This document shows positions 28,190-59,711 of a DNA stretch of 64,000 nt, piece after piece; positions within the stretch are counted from its first letter, which is position 1; each line of letters starts with the position of its first letter. The stretch lies in contig NZ_LT707408.1 of the NCBI RefSeq assembly GCF_900156875.1, positions 1,439,395 to 1,503,394 on the forward strand, read 5' to 3'. Position numbers and translations under genes: made by a program. Origin of the DNA: Robertmurraya dakarensis. GTDB taxonomy: Bacteria; Bacillota; Bacilli; Bacillales; Cytobacillaceae. The notes beneath the pieces were generated by a model that saw nothing but the letters and a program-made list of their open reading frames with translations, was not told the DNA's origin and searched no databases.

Positions 28190-28275
28190 GGGACTTGGCA
28201 GGATTTGAACCTGCAAGATACACAACAGATTTCGGTAGAACTGTTGGTTGCTCTGCACATTGAGCTACAAGTCCC
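28190..28275 (-). tRNA. tRNA-like gene with abnormal anticodon arm (possible pseudogene)
   Basis: On the minus strand an 86-base cloverleaf-like unit is visible. It has an 8-bp acceptor stem GGGACTTG/CAAGTCCC, a D stem GCTC/GAGC, and a perfect T arm GCAGG-TTCAAAT-CCTGC. The anticodon stem CAACAG/CTGTTG encloses 12 bases (TTCTACCGAAAT) instead of seven, and TTC/GAA inside can pair to leave a 4-base loop, so no anticodon can be assigned. An extra base pair of nucleotides precedes the stem. No CCA is encoded. It may be a decayed tRNA or a non-decoding tRNA-like RNA. Confidence 0.6.
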
Positions 28276-52658: not shown

Positions 52659-53846
52659 ATGCGAAAAATGAAATCTTTTAAGTGGCTCCTATCTTGTATA
52701 GCAGTCATAATGATCGCTGCGGGGTGCAGCAGTCAGGGCAGCAGTGGTGGAACAGACAGCGGATCAAATAATAGCGGCAGTAACAATGCACCAAAAGATG
52801 AAAGTGGATTTCCACAACAGTTGGCAGTGAGTGTGTATGATGTTGGTTCATCAGGATATGCAGAATTTTCAGCAGTTGCGAATGCGTTGACTTCGGAATA
52901 TGGAACACAAATTCGTTTAATTCCTTCCGGAACTGGTGTTGGCCGAATGATCCCAATGAAAGATGGCGTTACTCCATTTGGTCGTTTAGGTGATGAATAC
53001 CAATTTGCTTATCGCGGAGAACAAGAATTTGCTACAATGGACTGGGGTCCACAGGATTTAAGAGTTGTTTGGCAAACAATGACTCACATTAATGGAGCAG
53101 TTCTAGAGGATTCAGATATTAAAACACCAGCAGATCTTAAAGGTAAAAAGATCCCTTATATCACAGCAAATGCATCAATTAATACAAAAGTTGAAGCAGT
53201 TCTGGCTGCAGGTGGATTAACTTGGGATGATGTTGAAAGAGTTGAATTAACTAGTTATGCAACTCAGGCTGATGCTTTAAAACAAGGTCAAACAGATATG
53301 GCACTTATGCTGCCAGGAGCATCATCACTTATAGAGCTTGATGAAATGCAAGGTATTCGTTGGTTAGAATTATCAGATGATGTAAATTCAGAAGAGTGGA
53401 AAAACGTTCAAAAGGTAGTACCTTGGTTAGTGCCAGATGAATGGTCAGTAGGAGCAGGTTTGTCAAAAGATGAACCATTAACATTTATGGCATATCCTTA
53501 TCCTCTAGTTTCTCGTGCAGATGTGGACGAGGAAGTAGTATATGAACTAATTAAACGACTCGACAATACAATTGATCAATATAAAGATGCAACTCCTGGT
53601 AATATCCAATGGGCTAAAGATCGCGTTAATACAACACCACTAGGAGTACCTTTCCATGAAGGAACGATCCGCTTCTTAGAAGAAGAAGGAATGTGGAGTG
53701 AAGAGCAAACAACTCAAAACAATGAATTAATCGAATATGGTAAGAGTCTGAAAGAAGAATGGGAAAAAATCACTGCAGAAGCAGAAGAGCAAAACATTAG
53801 TAAAGATGATTTCCCACAATATTGGCTTGAAAATAAGTCTAAGTAA
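52659..53846 (+). CDS. TAXI-family TRAP solute-binding lipoprotein
   Basis: A 395-residue extracytoplasmic receptor for the fused permease before it. The signal peptide ends in the lipobox IAAGC near residue 24, followed by a Ser/Gly/Asn-rich linker. The mature part has SVYDVGSSGYAEFSAVANAL near the start, the TAXI-type ligand segment, and GVPFHEGTIRFLEE near the end. It starts at ATG after AAAAGGGGAG. The 159-base gap to the permease has no terminator, so the two are probably one transcript. Confidence 0.9.
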   Translation: MRKMKSFKWLLSCIAVIMIAAGCSSQGSSGGTDSGSNNSGSNNAPKDESGFPQQLAVSVYDVGSSGYAEFSAVANALTSEYGTQIRLIPSGTGVGRMIPMKDGVTPFGRLGDEYQFAYRGEQEFATMDWGPQDLRVVWQTMTHINGAVLEDSDIKTPADLKGKKIPYITANASINTKVEAVLAAGGLTWDDVERVELTSYATQADALKQGQTDMALMLPGASSLIELDEMQGIRWLELSDDVNSEEWKNVQKVVPWLVPDEWSVGAGLSKDEPLTFMAYPYPLVSRADVDEEVVYELIKRLDNTIDQYKDATPGNIQWAKDRVNTTPLGVPFHEGTIRFLEEEGMWSEEQTTQNNELIEYGKSLKEEWEKITAEAEEQNISKDDFPQYWLENKSK

Positions 53847-53896: not shown

Positions 53897-53930
53897 CAGG
53901 AGAATCCTATGATTCTCCTGTTATTTTTTG
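53897..53930 (+). terminator. Terminator of the TAXI-TRAP genes
   Basis: CAGGAGAATC (53897-53906) pairs perfectly with GATTCTCCTG (53911-53920), followed by TTATTTTTT. Confidence 0.92.
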
Positions 53931-53978
53931 TTTTTATAATGTTATGAAAGGCAAATTTTGTTTAGATGTGGAGGGGAA

Positions 53979-54649
53979 AGGCCTTCATTAAGGGGACGAA
54001 ACCAAAACCCGGTTGGAGTTCTGTAAAAATGGTCATCATGTACGTGATGAAAGCCGAAACCTGGTAGGGGATCTATAAAAATGGTCATCATGTACGTGAT
54101 GAAAACCAAAACCTGGTATGTGATCTATAAAAATGGTCATCATGTACGTGATGAAAACCGAAATCTGGTATGTAATCTATAAAAATGGTCATCATGTACG
54201 TGATGAAAACCGAAATCTGGTATGTGATCTATAAAAATGGTCATCATGCACGGAATGAAAGCCGAAACCTGTCATGTGATCTATAAAACTGGTCATCATA
54301 CACGGGATGAAGACCAAAACCCGGTAGGGGATCTATAAAACTGGTTATCATGTACGTGATGAAAACCGAAATCTGGTATGTGATCTATAAAACTGGTCAT
54401 TATACACGTGATGAAAACCGAAATCCGGCATGAAATCTATAAAAATGGTCATCATACATGTGATGAAAACCGAGATCTGGTAAGTGATCTATAAAAATGG
54501 TCATCATGTACGTGATGAAAGCCGAAATCTGGCATGAGATCTTTAAAAATGGTCATACACGGAATGAAAACCGAAACCTGACATGAGATCTATAAAACTG
54601 GTCATCGTGCACTGGATGAAGACCAAAACTAGGTTGCTGATGAAAAAAA
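53979..54649. repeat. 52-bp tandem repeat array, about 13 copies
   Basis: The block GGTCATCATGTACGTGATGA recurs at 54031, 54083, 54135, 54187, 54239, 54291, 54343, 54395, 54447, 54499, 54551 and 54600. The period is exactly 52 bases, except the last step of 49 where CAT is lost. A degenerate copy starts at 53979. Each unit holds a palindrome TCATCA-nn-TA-nn-TGATGA, then ACCGAAATCTGGT (a short stem) and ATCTATAAAAAT. Fifty-two is not a multiple of three and stop codons fall in all frames, so it is not coding. Unlike CRISPR there are no unique spacers. It runs up to the left end of the IS element. Confidence 0.93.
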
Positions 54650-54766
54650 AGTCCTTCATCAACGTGATGAAGGACTCAGCTTGTTGAGAAAGGGGTATTT
54701 TTTCTCGGCAAGCTGTTTTATTTTTGTGTTTATTACCATCTAGTTTTTAATGGACCCATAAATATA

Positions 54767-54816
54767 AAAGATTGCCACACATTTACCCTAGTCTTGCTAG
54801 GTGTGTGGCAATCTTT
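54767..54816 (-). terminator. Terminator of the transposase gene
   Basis: AAGATTGCCACACA and TGTGTGGCAATCTT are perfect inverted copies flanking the transposase stop codon region, with A/T runs on both sides. Confidence 0.8.
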
Positions 54817-56132
54817 TTCATGTTTTGGCAAGCAGCTGTTAATAAAACTTGCTCACTTGCCTTCTCTAATCCCCGTAACCGGCAGTAGCGAAGCCCATGC
54901 AGCTCTTTTGAGTCTGCGAAGCTTCGCTCCACTTTTTCTTTTCTAAATTTATATAGCATTTTTCCCGAATTAGATAATCGATTTAACCTTACCTTCTCCT
55001 TATGCTCTTCCCAAACATGGCGTGTGACCACTTTTACTTTATTTTTGGATCTCGTGCATTGAGTTAGTAGTGGGCAACTGGAACACTTCTTGGGATCAGA
55101 TTTATATTCTCTATATCCTTCACGAGTGGTTGTTCGATAGGTCAGTTCTTGATTATTTGGGCAGACATATAAATTGCGTTCTTGATCATATGTAAATTTC
55201 CACTTTGGGAATAAACCTTTAGTAGGATGATATCTTCTATGGGCAATCACTCCAAAAATTTTCCGATCAGATAATCCTTTACAAATAGGGTTCGTCAGAT
55301 ACCCGGAGTCCAGCGCAACAGCTTCTACTTTGAATCCAAATCTTTCGATTTGGCGGTCTAAACGATTAAGATAAGGAACCGAATCATGAACGTTACCAGG
55401 CGTAACAAAAGCATCGGTAATAATATTAAACTTCATATCCGTTGTCCTATGATCCAAGTAACAGAACATTTCCTGCTTATTGTCTCTAGACATAAACCCA
55501 CTTTCAGGATCAGTTTTACTTACGCGAATCTCTTTTGTTTCCCTCACTTCCTCTCTCTCTTTTAGAGGCTTTTTTCCATGGTTCTCCCGATCCTCTTCAA
55601 CTGCTTTATTTAAATCCTCGAAGTATTCACGAGTCTGTACCTCGACCTCTTCCTTGGTAAATTTATGCTTATTAGCATTAGCTTTTAAATGAGTAGAGTC
55701 ACTAAATAAAACTCTTCCTCCAACCATCTTGTGATTGATAGCAAGAAGCACAATTTCATCAAAAATATCTTGAAAAATATTAGTATCCTTAAAACGATGC
55801 TTACGATTCCAACTAATCGTAGAATGATGGGGAACTGGATCATGGAATTTTAAACCTAAAAACCAACGATATGCGATATTCATCTTAATTTCTTGTTCTA
55901 ATTGTCGTTCTGAACGAATGCCGTATAAGTAACCAATAAACATCATTTTAAAAAGGATAAGTGGATCAGTTGGACGACCATTATCTTCACTATAATAAGG
56001 ACGAGCCTTTTCCAATATAAAAGAGAAATCAATATATTTGTCTATCACGCGTAAGAGATGATTTTCTGGTACTAATTCGTCAATTGAAACGAACTCAAAT
56101 TCATTTTGGGAAGAACCTTTTGACTTTAACAT
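54783..56132 (-). CDS. IS1182-family DDE transposase
   Basis: A 449-residue transposase that appears intact. The N-terminal part, DELVPENHLLRVIDKYIDFS and RPTDPLILFKMMFIGYLYGI, is the family helical region. The DDE residues are visible in LFSDSTHLKANANK, AVALDSGYLT and KVERSFADSKELHG. A CxxC-rich region (CSSCPLLTQCTRS) lies between the second and third. The frame is full length without stops, so the element may still be active. It lies within the inverted repeats at 54650 and 56272. Confidence 0.95.
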   Translation of the reverse strand: MLKSKGSSQNEFEFVSIDELVPENHLLRVIDKYIDFSFILEKARPYYSEDNGRPTDPLILFKMMFIGYLYGIRSERQLEQEIKMNIAYRWFLGLKFHDPVPHHSTISWNRKHRFKDTNIFQDIFDEIVLLAINHKMVGGRVLFSDSTHLKANANKHKFTKEEVEVQTREYFEDLNKAVEEDRENHGKKPLKEREEVRETKEIRVSKTDPESGFMSRDNKQEMFCYLDHRTTDMKFNIITDAFVTPGNVHDSVPYLNRLDRQIERFGFKVEAVALDSGYLTNPICKGLSDRKIFGVIAHRRYHPTKGLFPKWKFTYDQERNLYVCPNNQELTYRTTTREGYREYKSDPKKCSSCPLLTQCTRSKNKVKVVTRHVWEEHKEKVRLNRLSNSGKMLYKFRKEKVERSFADSKELHGLRYCRLRGLEKASEQVLLTAACQNMKKIATHLARLG

Positions 56133-56310
56133 TATATTTCACCACTCATAAATAGTATTAATACTTATATTATACCAAATTAACGCGGTGAATTGATAAA
56201 GAAAATGGACGAAATATAGGCTGCCGAGACTTTCTCGACAGCCTGAGTCCTTCATCAACGTGATGAAGGACTTAGTCTAAAGATAAAGTTTAATTCCTTA
56301 ATAATATTTT

Positions 56311-57664: not shown

Positions 57665-57824
57665 ATTTTTTCGGGTGAAGGACTTCCGTTTGAGGTATTT
57701 CATAGTTACTTTACGAAGGTAGCGTAATTTTACAAGCGTACACACTTAAATAAAACTAGTTCCCTTGAACAAATCTAGATTAAAAGCTACATTATAAGAA
57801 GTACCATCAAAGGAAGTGGCAGTT

Positions 57825-59711
57825 TTGACGAAGAGATATTTTACGATCGGAATGGCAGGGCATATTGATCATGGAAAGACAACGCTTACGAAGGCGCTGA
57901 CGAATGTTGATACGGACCGTTTAAAGGAAGAAAAGGAGAGGCAAATATCGATTGAACTCGGTTTTGCCCCTTTATATGAGGACGATGAAATCCAAATATC
58001 TGTAGTGGATGTGCCGGGACATGAACGGTTTATTCGACAAATGATTGCGGGTGTTGCTGGCATTGATTTGGTGGTTTTAGTCGTGGCAGCAGATGAAGGC
58101 GTCATGCCGCAGACACGCGAGCATTTGGATATATTAGGGTTTCTTGAGATACGAAATGGAGTCGTGGCGGTCACGAAAATTGATCGTGTTGACGAAGAAT
58201 TTATCGATCTGGTGAAGGACGATATTATGGAGGAGCTTGAGGGAACTGTTTTTGAAAAATCTCCTTTCGTATTAGTTGACAGTCTTTCTAAAAAAGGCAT
58301 CGATGACTTAAAAGAACTTATTATACATACATTAAAGCAGCAGCAAACGCGAGACAGCAAAGGGGCTTTTCGGCTTCCGATAGATCAAGTGTTTACGGTG
58401 AAAGGCCAGGGAACGGTTGTCCGTGGAACCGTTTATGACGGAATGGTGGAAGAAGGTCAAGCTTTAAAAATCATGCCGAAAGGTCTAGAGGCAAGAGCAA
58501 GACAAATTCAAGTTCACCATCAGAATGCAGACAAAGCGTATGCTGGACAGCGTGCGGCCATTAATTTATCAGGGGTGTCAAAAGAAGATCTTGAACGCGG
58601 GGATGTCCTTGTTTCTTCTGAGCATTTTATAGTCACAAGAACAATGGATGTGGCGATTCGCGTCGTCGAAGATTTGGATTATATGGTAAAACAACGGATG
58701 CCGATTAAATGTCATATCGGGACAGCCGAGGTTATGGGAAGAATTGTTTTCTTTGATCGAAATGAATTAAAGGAAGAAAATGGGGAAATTCTTTGCCAAA
58801 TACGCTTGGATGAAGAAGTTGTCACGAAACGGGGAGATCGATTCATTTTAAGAAGGCCAAGCCCTCAAGAAACAATTGGCGGCGGCTGGGTGATAGACCC
58901 ACAAGGACAAAAATACCGTTTCGGTGAAAGAACCGTTGCAGAATTGGAAAAGAAAAAAGTTGGCACACCTGCTGAAAGAATGGTTTCAGCATTAATGGAA
59001 ACAAAGAGTCTGTCTTTGGATGAATTGTTGACTCGAACTTCACTCGAAAAAGAAGCGCTAATGCAAGAGTTAGGGAGTGATGACTTTGTTCTGTATAACG
59101 GAAAAGAGTATACACTAAGGGCGTTAGTGGATGTGATTGAAGAGGAACTTTATAACATCCTAAGGGACTTCCACACCTCTTCACCAATGAAAAAAGGATT
59201 AAATAAAGCTGAACTACTTCAAACTCTTTCAAAATCATACCCGAATACAGTCATTGACTTTTCAATTGATGAAGGAGTCAAGAAAAATACCTTTAAAAGA
59301 GAAGGTCAGTTTATTTCAATTGGGGACTTTGAGCCGCATGTTCCAAACAATTGGAAAACTAGGACAGTTAATATGCTGGCAAAATTAAAAGGCGATGGGA
59401 TGCAAGTCAAATATTTTAAAGATTACTTAACAGACGCAGGGATCCCAGATAAAATCGCTGCTGATTTAAAGAAGTTTCTTGAAGAGGAAGGCTCTATCGT
59501 TGCTCTTGATGACCAATATTATTGGCATGGGGAAGTCTTTAATGAGGCGGTTGAAAGGTTAAAAGCGCAAACAGATTCAGAATTTGATGTAGGTGCTGCA
59601 AAAGAAATACTGGGATTGTCGAGAAAGTATATGATCCCATTTTTGGAATGTATGGATAACAAAGGTTTCACAAAACGAGTTGAGAATAAACGTGTATGGA
59701 AGATAAAGTGA
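57825..59711 (+). CDS. selB: Selenocysteine-specific elongation factor SelB
   Basis: The 628-residue GTPase that brings Sec-tRNA to UGA codons marked by a SECIS hairpin. The G domain has GMAGHIDHGKTTL (residues about 9-21), DVPGHERFIRQM and TKID. Two beta-barrel domains follow, then a C-terminal part made of winged-helix repeats that read the SECIS element. TTG at 57825 is chosen, giving MTKRYFTIGMAGHIDHGK, with AAAGGAAG 9-10 bases upstream; the in-frame GTG at 57816 overlaps that site. No selA, selD or normal Sec tRNA is in the window. Confidence 0.95.
   Translation: MTKRYFTIGMAGHIDHGKTTLTKALTNVDTDRLKEEKERQISIELGFAPLYEDDEIQISVVDVPGHERFIRQMIAGVAGIDLVVLVVAADEGVMPQTREHLDILGFLEIRNGVVAVTKIDRVDEEFIDLVKDDIMEELEGTVFEKSPFVLVDSLSKKGIDDLKELIIHTLKQQQTRDSKGAFRLPIDQVFTVKGQGTVVRGTVYDGMVEEGQALKIMPKGLEARARQIQVHHQNADKAYAGQRAAINLSGVSKEDLERGDVLVSSEHFIVTRTMDVAIRVVEDLDYMVKQRMPIKCHIGTAEVMGRIVFFDRNELKEENGEILCQIRLDEEVVTKRGDRFILRRPSPQETIGGGWVIDPQGQKYRFGERTVAELEKKKVGTPAERMVSALMETKSLSLDELLTRTSLEKEALMQELGSDDFVLYNGKEYTLRALVDVIEEELYNILRDFHTSSPMKKGLNKAELLQTLSKSYPNTVIDFSIDEGVKKNTFKREGQFISIGDFEPHVPNNWKTRTVNMLAKLKGDGMQVKYFKDYLTDAGIPDKIAADLKKFLEEEGSIVALDDQYYWHGEVFNEAVERLKAQTDSEFDVGAAKEILGLSRKYMIPFLECMDNKGFTKRVENKRVWKIK

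Follow-up and report, generated by a model that had tools for sequence, protein, structure and literature searches.

The window analysed here, a 64,000-nucleotide stretch of the Robertmurraya dakarensis genome, carries a palindromic 52-bp tandem array. Dozens of such arrays occur in this genome, and they belong to a Bacillales-wide family. Arrays of this family are linked to genes for one subfamily of NERD-domain proteins, keep a fixed period and have covarying stem arms; their palindrome class matches the protein clade, and their presence or absence follows a recognizable pattern across genomes. We see an even chance that the window array is a dispersed, gene-free member of a two-part chromosomal system, composed of a nuclease and its palindrome satellite.

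The window array and its surroundings

The array was detected by TRF at 53999-54629 (12.2 copies, 84% match) with a score of 786, whereas the best score among 100 dinucleotide shuffles of the array region was 46. The initial annotation was thus right in describing a 52-bp array with a 3-base deletion, but its count of twelve copies plus one degenerate copy, ending at 54649, fell short: we resolve 14 dyads with cores from 53984 to 54655, which give an extent of 53979-54676. The steps between successive dyads are, in order, 51 bp once, 52 bp nine times, 49 bp at the 3-base deletion, and then 52 and 51 bp. The variation of the unit centre (GTAC, GCAC, ACAC) falls inside a 7-nt loop between 10-bp arms, as the annotation had read it, and the 14th unit is the sole perfect dyad of the array. 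The features of this region are as follows.

52659-53846, + strand: upstream gene, NMT1_3 substrate-binding protein (domain match)
53897-53935, + strand: terminator-like hairpin and T-run in the interval between upstream gene and array (read from the sequence, unscored)
53979-54676, no strand assigned: palindromic tandem array, 52-bp, TTCAT class, 14 units (cores 53984, 54035, 54087 ... 54604, 54655)
54650-54676, no strand assigned: 14th unit, perfect dyad AGTCCTTCAT-CAACGTG-ATGAAGGACT, in array register (51 bp), abutting the left end of the insertion sequence (IS)
54677-56245, - strand: IS1182-like element, transposase ORF 54783-56132 with DDE_Tnp_1_6 and DUF772; ends CAG...CTG from sequence
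56246-56272, no strand assigned: 27-bp dyad on the distal side of the IS, an exact repeat of 54650-54676

The hairpin and T-run agree with the earlier placement of the array behind a terminator. No ORF of at least 60 aa covers the array, in keeping with its description as non-coding, and Rfam gave no match at gathering score at the arrays in the window or at 10 further array loci. We take the IS to belong to the IS1182 family from its pair of transposase domains; this genome contains no second full copy of it. Because the dyad at 54650-54676 is repeated exactly at 56246-56272, the element occupies an array dyad. To find the empty site, orthologues of the upstream gene were sought in six genomes of the genus; apart from the window itself, the sole match was one of 40 bp in a single genome.

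Distribution of the repeat family

The array has 24 BLAST places in its own genome, two of which flank the IS in the window. The pattern TTCATN{3,10}ATGAAN{20,50}TTCAT has 226 + 204 matches there as opposed to 4 + 5 for the reversed control, although a single unit may be counted once on each strand; unit pairs number ~200, and nearly all of the matches listed are 52-bp array steps or isolated. With a tighter pattern, the 151 family genomes range from 1 to 621 matches, forward and reverse (controls ≤6), and a single genus can contain both TTCAT-rich and TTCAT-poor species (295 and 283 versus 1 and 2 in genus g2; 621 versus 6 in g24). At least 117 stretches of public genome contigs carry the repeat pattern, and we take these to come from Bacillus and related genera, except for one Saprospiraceae and one Bacillota MAG. 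The double dyad is also present in five IMG/VR viral contigs (L055-L059).

Orthologous arrays vary in copy number (6 versus 4, 5 versus 9), and a 7.6-copy array of genome G122 has no counterpart at the orthologous place in G118, which lacks the NERD gene described below. Longer, higher-order units are also present, at 208 and 312 bp. One locus (L047 6730-11948, ~1.046 Mb on G000:C11) holds an array of 100 copies, whose higher-order unit measures 312 bp (6 x 52), next to a YhcN/YlaJ sporulation lipoprotein gene. At three other loci (L049, L038, L040), runs of N with array on either side may be assembly gaps or withheld sequence within arrays; the giant ORFs between the array halves there are these runs of N and were rejected as genes.

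The arrays are largely extragenic, with six of 159 lying inside an ORF of at least 70 aa, and of 124 others with both neighbours, 84 are flanked by co-directional genes, 28 by convergent ones and 12 by divergent ones. The purine-rich array strand coincides with the G-rich (leading) flank strand in 98 of the 118 arrays that passed length and skew filters (21/22 in the own genome), ~40 with short flanks or weak skew having been excluded. This polarity may reflect polarity of insertion or strand-biased mutation.

A fixed period and a covarying stem

The spacing of the dyads is nearly invariant. In the regions fetched from the own genome, which were chosen for arrays, 329 of 945 successive dyad steps shorter than 220 nt are exactly 52. 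In a genome-wide comparison of 51-52 bp with 54-84 bp, exact double dyads at the former distance number 65, 31, 125 and 117 in four rich genomes (control 0), versus three in total at the latter in 20 rich genomes, these four included.

The stem common to 158 array consensi consists of 10-bp arms and a 7-nt loop. Watson-Crick pairing at arm pairs 6-10 is found in 97, 118, 123, 135 and 92 of the 158 consensi, compared with shuffle maxima of 96, 86, 82, 121 and 67; pairs 7-10, which lie outside the search pattern, therefore covary far above shuffles, while pair 6 barely does (97 versus 96). The inner TTCAT/ATGAA is near-constant because the search required it. Arm types include GGTCTTCAT/ATGAAGACC in the own genome, GTCATTCAT/ATGAATGAC in G025 and GTCCTTCAT/ATGAAGGAC in G016. 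Clear pairing ends at arm position 11, where A/T tracts start, and the second small stem that the initial annotation drew (CCgAAAtcTGG) is not a general feature of the 158 arrays. The covariation test that it proposed shows the stems to be conserved, and its view that the array is kept by selection or homogenisation was right. Sequence between the sites is thus free, yet their period hardly changes, an unusual constraint that calls for a structural explanation.

A NERD protein is encoded beside some of the arrays

When 268 array-flanking proteins were clustered, the single family represented in more than three loci was NERD (PF08378), in nine loci; with nine loci among 159 arrays, few of the dispersed arrays have a NERD gene next to them, which counts against the nuclease-satellite account given below. 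NERD accounts for 9/229 array-adjacent ORFs versus 2/734 other ORFs in the same loci (Fisher p 7e-5), with the family chosen post hoc. In an independent test by protein alone, alignment A1 was searched in 18 rich and 40 other genomes (39 poor and the own genome), and arrays of any palindrome were detected by TRF on the flanks of the NERD loci. Of the 67 NERD subfamily genes whose 3' flank extends for 150 nt or more, 56 have a 50-54-bp array that starts 2-194 nt past the stop codon, with periods of 52 (49 arrays), 51 (5) or 53 (2), whereas a 5' array was seen in 3/66 (L115, L290, L046), all three without a 3' array. The protein search by itself yielded 56 distinct subfamily proteins, of which 46 have the 3' array, or 45/55 new cases since L248 is the same place as the discovery locus L103. 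Three of the ten without it (L272, L287, L288) are at or near contig ends and a fourth (L275) is broken; L265, without a near 3' array, has an array of 104-bp period further downstream. Of the generic NERD best matches that served as a control, 3/30 have an array, and two of these (L236, L239) proved to be subfamily genes with 3' arrays, while in L235 the array is 5'. Gene and array are linked, then, and the enzymatic mechanism set out further below is inferred.

Read in the direction of the NERD gene, the linked array is pyrimidine-rich in 43 of 56 cases, which together with the leading-strand bias of dispersed arrays suggests that many NERD genes lie head-on to replication; by gene position and sampled GC skew, four do so in G088 and none in G122.

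Two sets of loci depart from the usual arrangement. The own genome has a second NERD subfamily gene (L046 9194-10847, ~1.022 Mb on G000:C11), which falls in the tree group of the TCCGAA class; 5' of it lies a degenerate 52-bp array built on a different motif. In two related genomes (L273, L275), a 2-3-copy, TTCAT-like altered array lies behind NERD, and one of the genes has a stop; this condition is perhaps that of a dying system.

The NERD subfamily proteins are ~300 aa long and comprise a NERD / PD-(D/E)XK domain, a zinc ribbon and a C-terminal winged-helix-like domain. PF08378 matches four members at 51.4 to 68.2 bits (cut-off 22.1) and 55/55 members at E 0.01. Of 65 sequences, 64 retain E42 and all 65 retain D74, E/D87 and K89, which we take to be the PD-(D/E)XK set, and four cysteines, presumably those of the zinc ribbon, are retained in 63-64. 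The structure model (pLDDT 95) matches PD-(D/E)XK nucleases in Foldseek, namely R2 endonuclease, VC1899, Bax1 and BspD6I, two of them at E <0.001, with TM-scores to solved structures by query length of ≤0.30; VIA-align returns Can2 (Z 8.3, rmsd 5.3 over 138 residues) and also McrC. The protein thus has the residues and fold of this superfamily at weak to moderate structural scores, and is a predicted nuclease. The C-terminal domain, predicted alone, aligns with 3lmm_B (Z 6.0, rmsd 1.9, 56 aligned), and many of the rows returned are winged helices, some of which also bind RNA; its best Foldseek E is 0.15.

Among solved structures, a search by sequence gave no relative beyond two chance-level nanobody matches. 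The best viral structure match of the full-length model is another NERD protein, PHROGs gave a single weak match, to a family of unknown function, and a search with one subfamily protein at 1e-5 found nothing among 72,556 plasmid records or among 50,697 phage records. For the two NERD proteins scanned with PADLOC and NCBIfam, no catalogued defence-system model scored above cut-off, the matches being weak only (PglW, PDC-M16A and MAD6, the last at 22-24 bits versus a cut-off of 460).

Palindrome classes follow the protein

The NERD-linked palindromes, with many SPECIFICITIES, vary from gene to gene and include TTCAT/ATGAA, GTCCGAAT/ATTCGGAC, TCTGTCTGAA/TTCAGACAGA, ATTCCCGAA/TTCGGGAAT, ACTGA/TCAGT and others, with a mean inverted-repeat score of 7.0 versus 4.4 when shuffled (n=53). 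On a tree of 65 NERD proteins, the TTCAT class needs 8 changes compared to 16.5 for shuffled classes, with 0/500 shuffles as low. Of the 20 TTCAT genes, 19 fall in one 31-row tree group, which also contains eight genes of other classes; the exception is the NERD of the own genome (L039), in a different clade. As gene and array are linked, common descent alone can cluster the classes, and the tree is not proof of recognition.

The distribution of the gene across genomes follows the same lines. We find a TTCAT-type gene in 13/18 TTCAT-rich genomes versus 0/29 poor ones, a comparison that takes the best locus per poor genome (20/29 with a classifiable array; 10 further poor genomes are without a fetched locus) and, for the five rich genomes with no such gene among the loci read, excludes their other NERD loci. 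In genus g2, the subfamily is present in 4/4 rich genomes searched (393-428 bits) and in 0/7 poor ones (≤101 bits). In other genera, many poor genomes carry the subfamily with other palindromes, and a count of NERD genes does not by itself tell a rich genome from a poor one. In 400-kb samples, three genomes without the subfamily (G092, G118, G081) have 0 arrays of period 50-54, whereas the subfamily-bearing G122 and G088 have two and seven, respectively. The sampled stretches contain no subfamily ORF of at least 150 aa, so that the arrays there are dispersed. G088 is TTCAT-poor, and three of its seven arrays are by eye ACTGA/TCAGT, the palindrome of its own NERD-linked array. The initial annotation had counted absence from close relatives, together with random variation and no stem conservation, against its view; TTCAT arrays are indeed scarce or absent in many relatives, but presence follows a gene and the stems are conserved.

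Within the own genome, the ungapped similarity of dispersed arrays to the NERD-linked unit is 0.38-0.75. The top values (0.65-0.75) are found at 0.45-0.83 Mb, near the own NERD gene, where two further arrays have 0.54-0.56.

Comparison with known systems

One close likeness is to REP/REPIN-RAYT, which shares with the present case dispersed intergenic palindromes (here, six of 159 arrays in ORFs), a linked DNA-processing gene and a match between protein lineage and repeat class. The differences are that RAYT is a Y1 tyrosine transposase whereas the protein here is a NERD PD-(D/E)XK nuclease, and that REPs are single, paired or clustered whereas these units form strict 52-bp tandem arrays with the linked array 3' of the gene. 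Y1 genes were sought in 20 genomes as a direct REP-RAYT candidate, which we rejected: the 30 loci read contain neither a 50-54-bp array nor a TTCAT dyad in which at least seven arm positions pair, and the rich genome G168 has no Y1 match. The proposed NERD-array system would work like REP-RAYT but is unrelated to it.

CRISPR arrays are likewise regular palindromic repeats beside a nuclease gene. Here, the sequence between the palindromes itself repeats (52-bp unit, 84% match), so there are no unique spacers, and the initial annotation was right to call the array not CRISPR; nor did PADLOC and NCBIfam give a Cas match for the two proteins scanned. In type III toxin-antitoxin systems (ToxIN), tandem repeats are linked to a nuclease gene and lie 5' of it. 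The present arrays share the tandem repeats and nuclease gene, but are 3' in 56/67 genes and 5' in 3/66, and they are also scattered without the gene. MIRU/VNTR minisatellites are intergenic ~50-bp tandem repeats of variable copy number, and differ from these arrays, which have a near-fixed period across unlike sequences, a conserved dyad and a linked nuclease gene.

NERD proteins (PF08378) include S. aureus SmdA, which has the NERD domain in common with the proteins studied here. The open-access titles and beginnings of abstracts surveyed gave neither a link between a NERD protein and a repeat array nor a description of such 52-bp palindromic arrays, and to this extent the repeat is not a known one. 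The NERD-array chromosomal system of Bacillus-like bacteria is apparently undescribed.

Possible origins of the arrays

In the account that we favour, one part of the system is the NERD nuclease and the other the palindrome array with its near-invariant 52-bp step, 2-194 nt past the nuclease stop codon, with arrays of the same palindrome class dispersed over intergenic places. A nuclease dimer would read the palindrome; at 10.4 bp per turn, 52 bp makes five turns of the helix, which would place adjacent sites on the same side of the DNA. The enzyme might nick or cut at the palindrome, after which repair or unequal exchange could expand, homogenise and spread the arrays. They would then be a satellite of the nuclease, as REPs are of RAYT transposases. 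The NERD gene at G000:C11:432990-433895 would be the partner in the own genome. Taken together, a nuclease whose terminal domain probably reads nucleic acid, the 3' array, a period independent of sequence and a dispersal matched to the gene make this the best account. We further think it slightly more probable than not that NERD nucleases and 52-bp arrays form an undescribed class of system, widespread in Bacillales chromosomes and distinct from transposons, CRISPR, toxin-antitoxin and REP, with many parallel protein-palindrome pairs in which each nuclease spreads its own lattice. If so, an uncharacterised and abundant nuclease family gains a substrate, with many protein-site pairs showing natural variation in specificity; many of the tandem repeats of these genomes are accounted for; and bacteria have a second way, unrelated to the first, for a protein to sustain palindromic repeats dispersed over the genome. 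The initial annotation is confirmed in its observation and partly supported in its interpretation, as its suggestions included a site for protein binding or recombination, while the family, the fixed period and the NERD partner were missed.

A less probable, though serious, alternative is an RNA system, in which the array forms 3' untranslated hairpins of the NERD mRNA that NERD binds or processes, with the dispersed copies as decoys; the RNA might serve as an antitoxin, sponge or autoregulator. Co-transcription is possible because the array is nearly always 3' of the gene, at times by less than 10 nt, and the window array strand folds better than 20 shuffles (z -9.4). The mismatches of 20 TTCAT arrays, read in the NERD sense, also favour G.T over A.C (103 versus 55), but this wobble excess is not significant when counted per array (10 versus 5, with 5 ties). 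Dispersed arrays have no consistent orientation to neighbouring genes, the window array is preceded by a terminator-like hairpin, and the winged-helix-like end of the protein suggests DNA, although some of the matched winged helices bind RNA too. We regard as unlikely that the arrays are architectural, with NERD or another protein bound along a 52-bp lattice on one DNA face and the nuclease as its guard or processing enzyme, in the service of chromosome organisation, replication-direction marking or transcription termination. The 52-bp step, the A/T tracts beside the unit stem and the purine-strand polarity (98/118 arrays) would fit such a role, but this polarity may be strand-biased mutation, and a copy number that varies from background to hundreds within a genus is unlike an essential architectural site.

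Two further readings have little to commend them. That these are ordinary minisatellites, arising by slippage and recombination with no partner and with NERD genes merely situated in variable regions, is strongly disfavoured: the differing copy numbers of orthologous arrays and the 208- and 312-bp higher-order units are what it would predict, but slippage can neither hold a 52-bp period over many genera with changing spacers nor put an array 3' of one protein subfamily. We give hardly any credence to the arrays being a target-site family maintained by IS1182-like elements. The window IS is placed exactly at an array dyad, and PMC5678879 reports that IS1272, a member of the same IS1182-like family, targets stem-loops, inserting at inverted repeats of 22-30 bp that it replaces. 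In the window, however, the dyad is present on both sides of the element, and the own genome has a single IS copy versus hundreds of unit-pattern matches.

Other features of the window

A gene for a SelB-like selenocysteine elongation factor lies at 57816-59711 (+ strand), ~3 kb 3' of the window array. At 28190-28274 (- strand), Rfam reports a tRNA match of 44.1 bits where ARAGORN has none; its anticodon loop is enlarged by eye, and on this visual reading it is an odd tRNA or a tRNA pseudogene.
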